A stretch of 64,000 nt of DNA. It comes from an uncultured Pelagibacteraceae bacterium (GTDB lineage: Bacteria > Pseudomonadota > Alphaproteobacteria > Pelagibacterales > AG-422-B15). Positions 475 to 3,873 of this stretch are shown in pieces; within the stretch, counting starts at the first letter, position 1; the number at the start of each line of letters is the position of its first letter. A program made the translations under genes and the position numbers. The DNA lies in contig CACNCV010000002.1 in assembly GCA_902619105.1 (NCBI GenBank), positions 108,436 to 172,435 on the forward strand, given 5' to 3'. The notes below the pieces were generated by a model. That model was not told the origin of the DNA. It did no database searches and worked only from the letters and a program-made list of their open reading frames with translations.

Positions 475-1482
475 TTATTTTGCAACGCGTGATGCAGTTT
501 GATGTGACAAAAACAGCTTAGAAACCTCATGCCAATCAAATTTTTTACTATAATTTATACAATCTGTACGACTCACTTTTCTCGCCTTATCAATTGAATT
601 AATTAAATTATGATCAAGACAATTATGTTTAAAATTATCAAAAACATCAATTGGACCTGGAACAGGATATGCGGCCACGGGAAGTCCACTGGCGAGAGCC
701 TCAATCATGACCATTCCAAACGTATCTGTTTTACTTGGAAATACAAAAATATCTGAAGATGCATAGTACTGGGCCAGTTCACTTCCTTTCTTCACTCCTA
801 CAAAAACTGCATCAGTATATTTTTTTTCTAGTTTTTTCTTAGAGGGTCCATCACCTACAAGTAATTTTGTACCTTTTAAATTTAATTTAAGAAAATCCTC
901 TAGCGATTTTTCCTTAGATATTCTTCCTACATATAAATAAATTGGTTTTTCTAATTTGAGATCAATCTTTTTTTTCGGATGAAAGGCTTCAATATCAACA
1001 CCCCTGGACCATTTAACTGTTCTTTTAATTCCATGTGAATTAAGTTCATCTATAATTGAATTAGAAGATACCATTACTGCGCTAGAATTTTTGTGAAACC
1101 ATTTCAAAATTTTATATGTAAAAGATATAGGTATCTTAGCTATCGTGTTTATATATTCAGGGAATTTTGTACAATACGAGGTTGTAAAGGCATAATTATT
1201 CTTTGAACAATAATTCCTAACCGCTAAGCCAATAGGTCCCTCTGTAGCAACGTGTATAAAGTCAGGCTTAAACTTCTCAATGATCACGCCAATTTTGAAC
1301 CAATGATTAATCGCAAGTTTTATTTCAGGATAAATAATCAGTGGAATTGTAATAAATTGATCTGGAGTTATGTACCTAACCTCATGTCCTTGACTTGTAA
1401 GTTTATCACCAAGTGTTTGATAAGTTCTAACAACACCATTTATTTGAGGGAGCCATGCGTCTGATGCGATGAGTATTTTCAA
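475..1482 (-). CDS. Glycosyltransferase family 4 (Agt-like lipid glycosyltransferase)
   Basis: MKILIASDAWLPQINGVVRTYQTL N-term, EALASGLPVAAYPVPGPIDV GT4 motif; directly downstream of the phosphoesterase. Confidence 0.85.
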   Translation of the reverse strand: MKILIASDAWLPQINGVVRTYQTLGDKLTSQGHEVRYITPDQFITIPLIIYPEIKLAINHWFKIGVIIEKFKPDFIHVATEGPIGLAVRNYCSKNNYAFTTSYCTKFPEYINTIAKIPISFTYKILKWFHKNSSAVMVSSNSIIDELNSHGIKRTVKWSRGVDIEAFHPKKKIDLKLEKPIYLYVGRISKEKSLEDFLKLNLKGTKLLVGDGPSKKKLEKKYTDAVFVGVKKGSELAQYYASSDIFVFPSKTDTFGMVMIEALASGLPVAAYPVPGPIDVFDNFKHNCLDHNLINSIDKARKVSRTDCINYSKKFDWHEVSKLFLSHQTASRVAK

Positions 1483-2322
1483 TTAACTTAATACCTTTAA
1501 GGAGTCCTTATGTTTGTTGATAATTTCATACTTTTCAGCGATATCTTTCCAGAAAAGAATTTCCATTGATCCATCAAAATTTTCTATTATAAAGGAGCAA
1601 CTTTCTACCCAGTCCCCATCATTATAGTAATGAACTCCATTTATTATTCGATGTGAAGCATGATGAATATGTCCACAAATAACTCCTTTTAGATTTTTCT
1701 TTTTTGCATAACCTGCAACTATTTCTTCGTACTTATTAATGTAAGAAACAGCATTTTTTACTTTTAATTTCAGATACTTTGAAAGCGACCAATATTTCAA
1801 ACCCAATAATAATCTTAATTGATTAAATCTTCTATTTAGCCATAAAGCTAAATCGTATGCGCTAGCGCCAAGATGGGCTAACCAGGGTGCGATATTGATA
1901 ATTGAGTCAAATTTGTCTCCATGCAGTATAAGATATTCAGATCCATCTACTGTCTTATGTTTGATTTCATTAACTACTCTAATTTCGCCTAGTGTTATTG
2001 GCACAAATTTTCTAACAAGCTCATCATGATTTCCTGATACATAAAACACTTTAGTTCCATGTCGTGCTTTTCTTAGAATTTTTTGTATTACATCACTGTG
2101 ACTTTGTGGCCAGTACCATCTATTTTTAAGTCGCCACCCATCTATAATATCTCCAACTAAGTATAGGTAATCTGATCTGGTATTTTTTAAAAAATCAAGC
2201 AACTGTTCAGCTTGACAACCTTTTGACCCTAAATGAATATCTGAAATAAATATGGAACGATATTTTAAGAGAGGAATAACATTATTTTTTTCGTTGACCA
2301 TAAATTGGTAAAAAAGAATCAA
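1483..2322 (-). CDS. Calcineurin-like metallophosphoesterase (LpxH/PlcP-like)
   Basis: SDIHLG, GDIIDGW, SGNHDE, CGHIHHA metallophosphoesterase motifs. Confidence 0.85.
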   Translation of the reverse strand: MILFYQFMVNEKNNVIPLLKYRSIFISDIHLGSKGCQAEQLLDFLKNTRSDYLYLVGDIIDGWRLKNRWYWPQSHSDVIQKILRKARHGTKVFYVSGNHDELVRKFVPITLGEIRVVNEIKHKTVDGSEYLILHGDKFDSIINIAPWLAHLGASAYDLALWLNRRFNQLRLLLGLKYWSLSKYLKLKVKNAVSYINKYEEIVAGYAKKKNLKGVICGHIHHASHRIINGVHYYNDGDWVESCSFIIENFDGSMEILFWKDIAEKYEIINKHKDSLKVLS

Positions 2323-2430
2323 TTTTCATTACATTATCAATAATCTATGAAAGATTTGTTAAGCCATACTTTCTAGAAATATGTCATAAAATTTTAATAT
2401 TCTTGTAATTTTTATGACAAAATTAAAAAT

Positions 2431-2525
2431 TATAATTTACTCGTTGAGTAACTAGACAGAAGACTGAACTTCCTCATTTAATCCTCCACCCTTCCAAATA
2501 TAAATGGGGAAGTTCTTCTCTTATT
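2431..2525 (+). ncRNA. Candidate small RNA with 15-bp hairpin and C-rich anti-SD loop
   Basis: GAACTTCCTCATTTA (2466-2480) pairs with TAAATGGGGAAGTTC (2501-2515), one G-U; loop ATCCTCCACCCTTCCAAATA; TATAAT at 2431-2436; U-rich tail TTCTCTTATTT; no ORF on this strand. Confidence 0.35.
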
Positions 2526-2590
2526 TCCATTAAGGTAATTTGTATATTGGGATCATTATAAGAAAAAAGAGGAAAAATCAGGATTTTATA

Positions 2591-2634
2591 AAAAAAAAGG
2601 CCCAAACAAAGTATTTTGAAAGGGCCTTTTTCTT
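2591..2634. terminator. Rho-independent terminator-like hairpin
   Basis: AAAAAGGCCC ... GGGCCTTTTT, T-tracts on both strands, just 3' of the minus-strand gene ending at 2650. Confidence 0.75.
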
Positions 2635-2649
2635 GATTATTCAGTCTTT

Positions 2650-3069
2650 TTACATAGTAACGCCAATTCGCATGCCTGATCTATTGTACAAAATATTCAT
2701 CAGTACAAATACGAGTATAGATGCAATCATTGGTACAGGGTTTGCGCCGCCGTCAGCTCCCATATAAATTACAATTAATCTAATCGAATTTATAAATGAA
2801 CCGACAAGCATCATTCTAAAAAAAACCGTCGATTGCTCAATCGGCGCAAGCAAAGTTGCAACAAATGCAATTGCAAAGATTATATATGTCCAACCCAAGT
2901 TAGAAATTAACTGCAAATGATTTGCGTCTATGTCCCCACTACTAGTACCAAGTCGCTCGATAAACGCAGTAGCCGATTCTGCACCAGTAAACATGAATCC
3001 ATAAAACAGGAATAATAATGTTAGAAAACAAATTATTACTCTACTTATCGTGTCTTCAACTTTAATCAT
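2650..3069 (-). CDS. Small integral membrane protein, unknown function
   Basis: 139 aa, about 4 predicted TM segments by eye; 9 bp after the upstream membrane gene. Confidence 0.7.
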   Translation of the reverse strand: MIKVEDTISRVIICFLTLLFLFYGFMFTGAESATAFIERLGTSSGDIDANHLQLISNLGWTYIIFAIAFVATLLAPIEQSTVFFRMMLVGSFINSIRLIVIYMGADGGANPVPMIASILVFVLMNILYNRSGMRIGVTM

Positions 3070-3078
3070 ATATTCCTC

Positions 3079-3873
3079 CTAAAAATTAGATTGGTTTCTG
3101 AAGTAAATAGTCATTAGAACTATAAAATTCAAAATTATAAAAATTGCTAATAGAGGATTCCCGCTATCAGGATTGGTGGCAGTTCCAACCATTAATGCCG
3201 CAAGGAACATTGCAGCACCCACAGCACCCATTGAAACAAGAACGCCACTGAAACCCACTCGATACTGGTAAACCAATGAAATTAATATCGCTATATTAAT
3301 CATAGTTATTCCAAGAACAGCATGCTCTGCTTGAGGGCTGCTTTCAAGGTATGGAGTTTGTCTTATAAAACCACCAGGATCAATTACGTAACTGACAATA
3401 TTTATCACACTTATAAGTATCGCAATGTAGCCCATAATTTGTGATGTTTTGTCTGTAACGCCAAAAGCACTACTAGCCTTATCGTATGTAAAAGGCATTC
3501 CTGCTTTTACTCTCGATACAACAAGCAAGGCTAAAAGAATTATCCAGACTACAAGACCTGTAATGTTTTCCTCTCCAGTTTGTGCATTGGACATAATAAT
3601 CCAAATTACTTGAAGTAAGACAACAGGTATTGCATAAGCAAAGAAGCCTCTATCAAGACCTTTAAAACCCATATAAAGGATACCTACATATGCAACAAAG
3701 CTTACTGCTCCAAACCAGTTAAGAAAGAAAACTGTTGTTTGGTTATTCTCAAATGTTGGGTATCGTTCCATCATGAAATCTGTGTTGAACATCATGACGG
3801 CGCCATAAGCAAAAAATATAAGTCCTGCTAGAAACATGCAGCCTTGTATTAATTTATCGTCAGTATTAAACAT
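3079..3873 (-). CDS. Integral membrane protein, unknown function, two similar halves by eye
   Basis: 264 aa, about 8 hydrophobic segments. Confidence 0.7.
   Translation of the reverse strand: MFNTDDKLIQGCMFLAGLIFFAYGAVMMFNTDFMMERYPTFENNQTTVFFLNWFGAVSFVAYVGILYMGFKGLDRGFFAYAIPVVLLQVIWIIMSNAQTGEENITGLVVWIILLALLVVSRVKAGMPFTYDKASSAFGVTDKTSQIMGYIAILISVINIVSYVIDPGGFIRQTPYLESSPQAEHAVLGITMINIAILISLVYQYRVGFSGVLVSMGAVGAAMFLAALMVGTATNPDSGNPLLAIFIILNFIVLMTIYFRNQSNF

Follow-up and report, generated by a model that had tools for sequence, protein, structure and literature searches.

A predicted PhoB-controlled small RNA divergent from the plcP-agt lipid genes in one SAR11 genus

The locus

A 64,000-nucleotide (64-kb) stretch of DNA from a SAR11 bacterium of the genus AG-422-B15, referred to throughout as the window, carries close to its left end a pair of minus-strand genes and, divergent from them, a compact hairpin with promoter-like elements ahead of it. 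The features on which our argument draws are as follows, in window coordinates.

475..1482, minus strand: agt-like glycosyltransferase (Glycos_transf_1), directly after plcP
1483..2301, minus strand: plcP, a calcineurin-like, LpxH-like phosphoesterase (PF00149), divergent from the RNA
2381..2424, plus strand: predicted PhoB-binding site of four heptamers at 11-bp spacing (ATGTCAT/TTTTAAT/TTGTAAT/ATGACAA)
2431..2436, plus strand: -10 element TATAAT, exactly 10 nt past the last Pho heptamer
2443..2535, plus strand: inferred RNA gene, from promoter position and sequence, with its 3' end in a U-rich stretch at ~2520-2535
2446..2453, plus strand: conserved 5' motif GAGTAACT, invariant in all aligned homologs, with variable flanks
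2466..2480, plus strand: 5' arm of the stem
2481..2500, plus strand: 20-nt loop, ATCCTCCACCCTTCCAAATA, containing CCUCCACCCUUC (2483-2494)
2501..2515, plus strand: 3' arm of the stem, from an inverted-repeat scan and the homolog alignment
2588..2637, either strand: inverted repeat resembling a bidirectional terminator, with the RNA on one side and the convergent gene 2650-3069 on the other

The gene at 1483-2301 scores far below LpxH cut-offs and is best read as plcP, given its family and its synteny with agt, while the top NCBIfam resemblance of the gene at 475-1482 is to alpha-monoglucosyldiacylglycerol synthase, under the cut-off. In Pelagibacter HTCC7211, the plcP-agt operon exchanges phospholipids for glycolipids under phosphate starvation, and Pho boxes have been reported for plcP gene clusters (PMC4796936); gene pair and Pho control are common to that locus and the one described here. 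To the left of plcP-agt come a porin-like gene, sixA and a gene interpreted as ppk, followed further left by phoR, pstS, pst transporter genes, phoU-like open reading frames (named from sequence) and phoB. Together they make up a Pho island spanning roughly 16 kb, and the hairpin marks its right edge. The porin-like gene (195 to -737) runs past the left edge of the window, is preceded by a strong Pho-box-like site (345-313, minus strand) and is probably a phosphate-starvation porin. On the other side of the hairpin, the minus-strand region 2650-3873 and its homologs encode two small membrane proteins without a Pfam match, 31-97% identical between genomes, at a locally variable spot that adjoins conserved transporter genes.

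A Pho-type promoter facing the hairpin

Both strands of the window were scanned with a Pho-box matrix trained on pstS promoter units only. The top four-unit match anywhere in the window is the plus-strand site at 2381-2424, with 17.7 bits; in a three-unit scan it ranks second to the site at 345 (minus strand) ahead of the porin gene, a result that serves well as an internal control. No shuffle of the intergenic region out of 500 reached the observed scores, 64-kb Markov nulls peaked at 13.9 bits (9.2 when a -10 was required at 10 nt), and 66 kb of other DNA from the genome held no site of at least 7 bits, the best scoring 6.5. In the pstS promoters of the genus, four heptamers with 11-bp spacing precede a TAnnnT by 10 nt, and the 10-nt gap between box and TATAAT reproduces this layout. 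The arrangement is that of a Pho-regulon promoter, with 7-bp repeats every 11 bp ahead of the -10 in place of a -35; no consensus -35 was found on the plus strand. PhoB itself is encoded in the genome (TIGR02154 above cut-off at G000:C2:95056-95733).

The promoter is also retained among relatives. The four units and their spacing recur in every one of the 17 homologs scanned, most of which have CTGTCAT as the first heptamer, and the -10 elements of these homologs (TATAAT, TACAAT, TATTAT, TATCAT, TATAGT or TATGAT) vary as TAnnnT, as would be expected if the -10 is functional. The TATAAT that the sequence-only reading had placed about 30 nt upstream of the stem lies 29 nt before it, and transcription would be expected to start at ~2443, 7 nt past the -10. 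The box is oriented toward the hairpin, and the plcP side shows weaker units only (three-unit scores of 7-12). Between 2302 and 2380 no Pho box on the plcP side matches the strength of that on the RNA side; plcP may be switched on from the opposite strand of a shared box or from the weaker units at 2364-2332.

The hairpin

The same reading had described a 15-bp stem with one G-U pair, a 20-nt loop and a U-rich tail, all of which are present at the positions it gave. The stem is 93% Watson-Crick with the single G-U making up the rest, its arms stand 20 nt apart around the unpaired sequence AUCCUCCACCCUUCCAAAUA, and a U-rich stretch, UUCUUCUCUUAUUU, follows on the 3' side. Folded as RNA, the hairpin has a minimum free energy of -24 kcal/mol (z = -3.8), equalled by none of 200 shuffles, and it holds the anti-Shine-Dalgarno (anti-SD)-like bases CCUCC exposed within its loop. 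The loop is unique within the window even with up to 3 mismatches allowed, and the genome carries the element only once. Rfam returned no match to the hairpin at gathering or relaxed thresholds. No open reading frame of at least 60 aa in the window list overlaps it, bearing out the earlier statement that no coding sequence explains the structure; none lies between promoter and hairpin, and direct reading of the alignment found no short plus-strand frame kept across homologs. The window holds many longer, imperfect, AT-rich inverted repeats, and the length of the hairpin alone is not rare; it is set apart by near-perfect pairing, conservation and promoter context.

Distribution and conservation

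With a covariance model based on 14 homologs, the RNA is recovered from 20 of 43 AG-422-B15 genomes at E-values of ~1e-13 or better. Neither 10 further genomes from the family nor the remainder of a sample of 297 genomes from the order gave a convincing match. Weak matches in other genera (E 0.03-0.9) were not accepted as homologs; one of them (G088), whose loop differs and which has no plcP in its vicinity, seems to be an unrelated hairpin of terminator type. The genus genomes in which it was not found vary in how incomplete they are, but among genomes at least 90% complete the RNA is still present in 5 of 10. The adjacent minus-strand phosphoesterase gene occurs in exactly the same 20 of the 43 genomes as the RNA. 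The sequence-only reading contained neither the Pho box nor the plcP link nor the conservation at the level of the genus, all of which are additions to it.

Genomes of the genus without the RNA carry pstS, phoR and a membrane protein beside the same right-hand neighbours, so that the genus has two alternative Pho sets (plcP/agt/ppk versus pstS-phoR) with a junction immediately 3' of the hairpin (L086, L087 and L094, in G002, G027 and G021). Elsewhere the divergent position is occupied differently: in Pelagibacteraceae loci L046-L052 a diacylglycerol-kinase-type gene diverges from plcP across a common intergenic region that holds Pho-like repeats facing both ways, and the sister genus g7 has another open reading frame there, whereas in the RNA-bearing AG-422-B15 genomes the place of a protein gene is taken by the RNA.

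Across the aligned homologs, 98.2% of the cells of the stem pair. Three stem pairs vary with pairing maintained on the plus strand, one by a two-sided and two by one-sided change: the diverged clade (G018, G035 and G031) carries a G-C to A-U change, in its G-U form in one genome, together with U-G to C-G, and one further genome has replaced A-U by G-U. At the G-U position, pairing is lost in one genome. The compensatory change anticipated across relatives was thus seen at a single pair, 2466-2515, which is G-C, A-U or G-U in different homologs; as a count it does not stand out, being reached by 200 of 500 shuffles, and covariation is thin because the homologs are close, all from one genus. Nor is overall conservation above neutral, since between the two clades the hairpin is 79% identical and four-fold sites of plcP are 89% identical. 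The case for selection therefore rests on the pattern of change and not on its rate. Within the loop, CCUCCACCCUUC is identical in all aligned rows but two, the diverged clade included, while adjacent unpaired bases vary; in the exceptions, L009 and L014, it is altered to CCTCCACTATTC and shortened by one deleted base, respectively. CCTCCACCCTTC is likewise kept in the loop in all but two rows. This retention argues, not strongly, against neutrality.

That the hairpin arose by chance in a promoter region and gives no transcript is quite improbable in our estimation. The genome is AT-rich and full of inverted repeats, and the homologs are all close, as such an account would have it, but chance would have to accommodate the folding z-score, a Pho box and -10 in alignment with the hairpin, and a stem kept in the diverged clade through G-C to A-U and U-G to C-G changes.

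Strand and transcript

The sequence-only reading had proposed a plus-strand small RNA, and its candidate is strengthened by a predicted promoter of its own, a conserved stem and the conserved loop motif. Folding of both strands favours the plus strand in most homolog variants, although the hairpin also folds on the minus strand. Stem variants that form G-U pairs on the plus strand become C-A mismatches on the minus strand, which favours a plus-strand RNA, as does the orientation of the Pho box and -10. The downstream neighbours of the RNA change from genome to genome, which argues that it is an independent unit and not the leader of a downstream gene. Its latest possible 3' end is the bidirectional terminator at 2588-2637. 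We regard a PhoB-controlled small RNA on the plus strand as likely.

The opposite strand offers another account, in which the loop reads GGAAGGGUGGAGG and, followed by AUUAA-AUG, supplies the Shine-Dalgarno (SD) sequence and start of a 15-codon leader peptide of plcP, sequestered by the stem. The SD and start are perfect (GGAGGATTAAATG) and the minus-strand fold exists, yet direct reading of the homologs shows the frame to be lost, with 15 codons in the window against 7 in the G018 clade; with the C-A mismatches and a promoter directed to the plus strand, translation control of plcP from this strand is improbable.

The strongest rival is that the promoter is a leftover, its divergent gene having been lost, and that the hairpin merely ends a short transcript or is neutral, with a loop that has no function in trans. 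In its favour, this place is held in Pelagibacteraceae by the diacylglycerol-kinase-type gene, with a Pho-like box of its own, and in g7 by a different frame; the U-rich stretch after the stem and the empty target searches reported below point the same way. Against it, the hairpin would terminate poorly with its 20-nt loop and interrupted U tract, no terminator was predicted there, and a better one lies 70 nt further downstream in the window. Furthermore, CCUCCACCCUUC and GAGTAACT have been kept in the diverged clade where other unpaired positions changed. On balance we regard an orphaned promoter as unlikely, though a serious contender.

A model of action and the search for targets

Under the regulatory RNA that we favour, phosphorylated PhoB would bind the four-heptamer box at 2381-2424 as phosphate runs out and activate the plus-strand promoter with its -10 at 2431-2436, yielding a short RNA of ~80-90 nt divergent from plcP-agt. 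The product would be little more than one stable hairpin presenting a single-stranded CCUCCACCCUUCC loop, which could pair with GGAGG/GGAAGG, purine-rich stretches in the start regions of certain mRNAs, and reduce their translation without requiring Hfq. From its promoter and locus the element is probably an RNA regulator of phosphate stress. For the model as a whole, from PhoB induction to anti-SD action in trans, the arguments seem to us evenly balanced. The sequences show the hairpin, the layout of its promoter, its conservation and its linkage; transcription, control by PhoB in vivo and anti-SD action are each predicted.

Anti-SD pairing by the loop is plausible: its CCUCC corresponds to the anti-SD core, and the genome's own 16S ends in the canonical anti-SD. 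Hfq gave no match in this 90%-complete AG-422-B15 genome, in a search that registered it in 5 of 14 control genomes. Since GGA is missing from the plus-strand loop, competition for CsrA by this strand is unlikely. An SD-like 4-mer precedes only 15 of the 62 open reading frames of the window, and against the window's start regions the loop paired no better than shuffled loops. Across the genome, extended complementarity to the loop is not enriched (23 matches versus 27 for the reversed pattern), and complementary sites fall nearly all inside genes, none of them at a convincing start site. Two individual candidates were set aside: the sufC start region (-22 kcal/mol) is equally present in genomes without the RNA, its pairing being explained by conservation of the SufB C-terminus, and the phoU start region pairs more strongly in genomes that lack the RNA.

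Comparison with known RNAs

RNAs of the CcsR/cuckoo type present a CU-rich hairpin loop similar to the anti-SD, and a parallel with them had been drawn from the sequence. It does not carry over to this locus, where there is a single hairpin, no open reading frame separating it from the promoter, a promoter of PhoB and not RpoH type, and no match in Rfam. In Rhodobacter, the four units CcsR1-4 share a transcript with the DUF1127 gene ccaF1, made from an RpoH promoter, and are excised by RNase E (PMC10253847); no such features are seen here. Closer in its proposed mode of action is NfeR1 (ar14) of Sinorhizobium meliloti, a 123-nt RNA with three anti-SD hairpins controlled by LsrB and NtrC, which is induced by nutrient stress, acts independently of Hfq and pairs with start regions through its anti-SD loops (PMC10746234). 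The SAR11 RNA differs from it in having one hairpin and a Pho-type promoter and in lacking any sequence match. The similar CU-rich loop, and in ar14 the Hfq-independence and induction by nutrient stress (PMC10746234), would suit membership of the cuckoo/CcsR or ar14 families; with no Rfam match to them at E-values up to 5, one hairpin in place of three or a tandem array, no adjacent DUF1127 gene and, within the order sample, no occurrence outside a single SAR11 genus, such membership is very improbable.

Small RNAs responsive to phosphate stress are known in S. meliloti and E. coli (PMC8829014), several of them linked to Hfq and all in larger genomes, in contrast to the SAR11 genome here, which is streamlined and gave no Hfq match. 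In the texts found on the plcP-agt locus no divergent hairpin RNA is described, the titles and abstracts found for SAR11, PhoB and small RNAs mention no such RNA, and the literature searched yielded nothing on PhoB-dependent small RNAs.

Significance

We offer as a distinctly doubtful proposal that this element founds a new SAR11 family of single-hairpin, Hfq-independent small RNAs, born of a PhoB promoter left behind when a divergent gene was lost, and coupling lipid remodelling in phosphate-starved cells to the shutting off of translation for selected SD-led genes. In the ocean, SAR11 rank with the most numerous cells, and their regulators are very few. If the reading is true, a phosphate-starvation RNA would be acting in a genome without detectable Hfq and, tied as it is to the lipid-remodelling genes, would constitute a post-transcriptional arm of a well-known SAR11 nutrient response.
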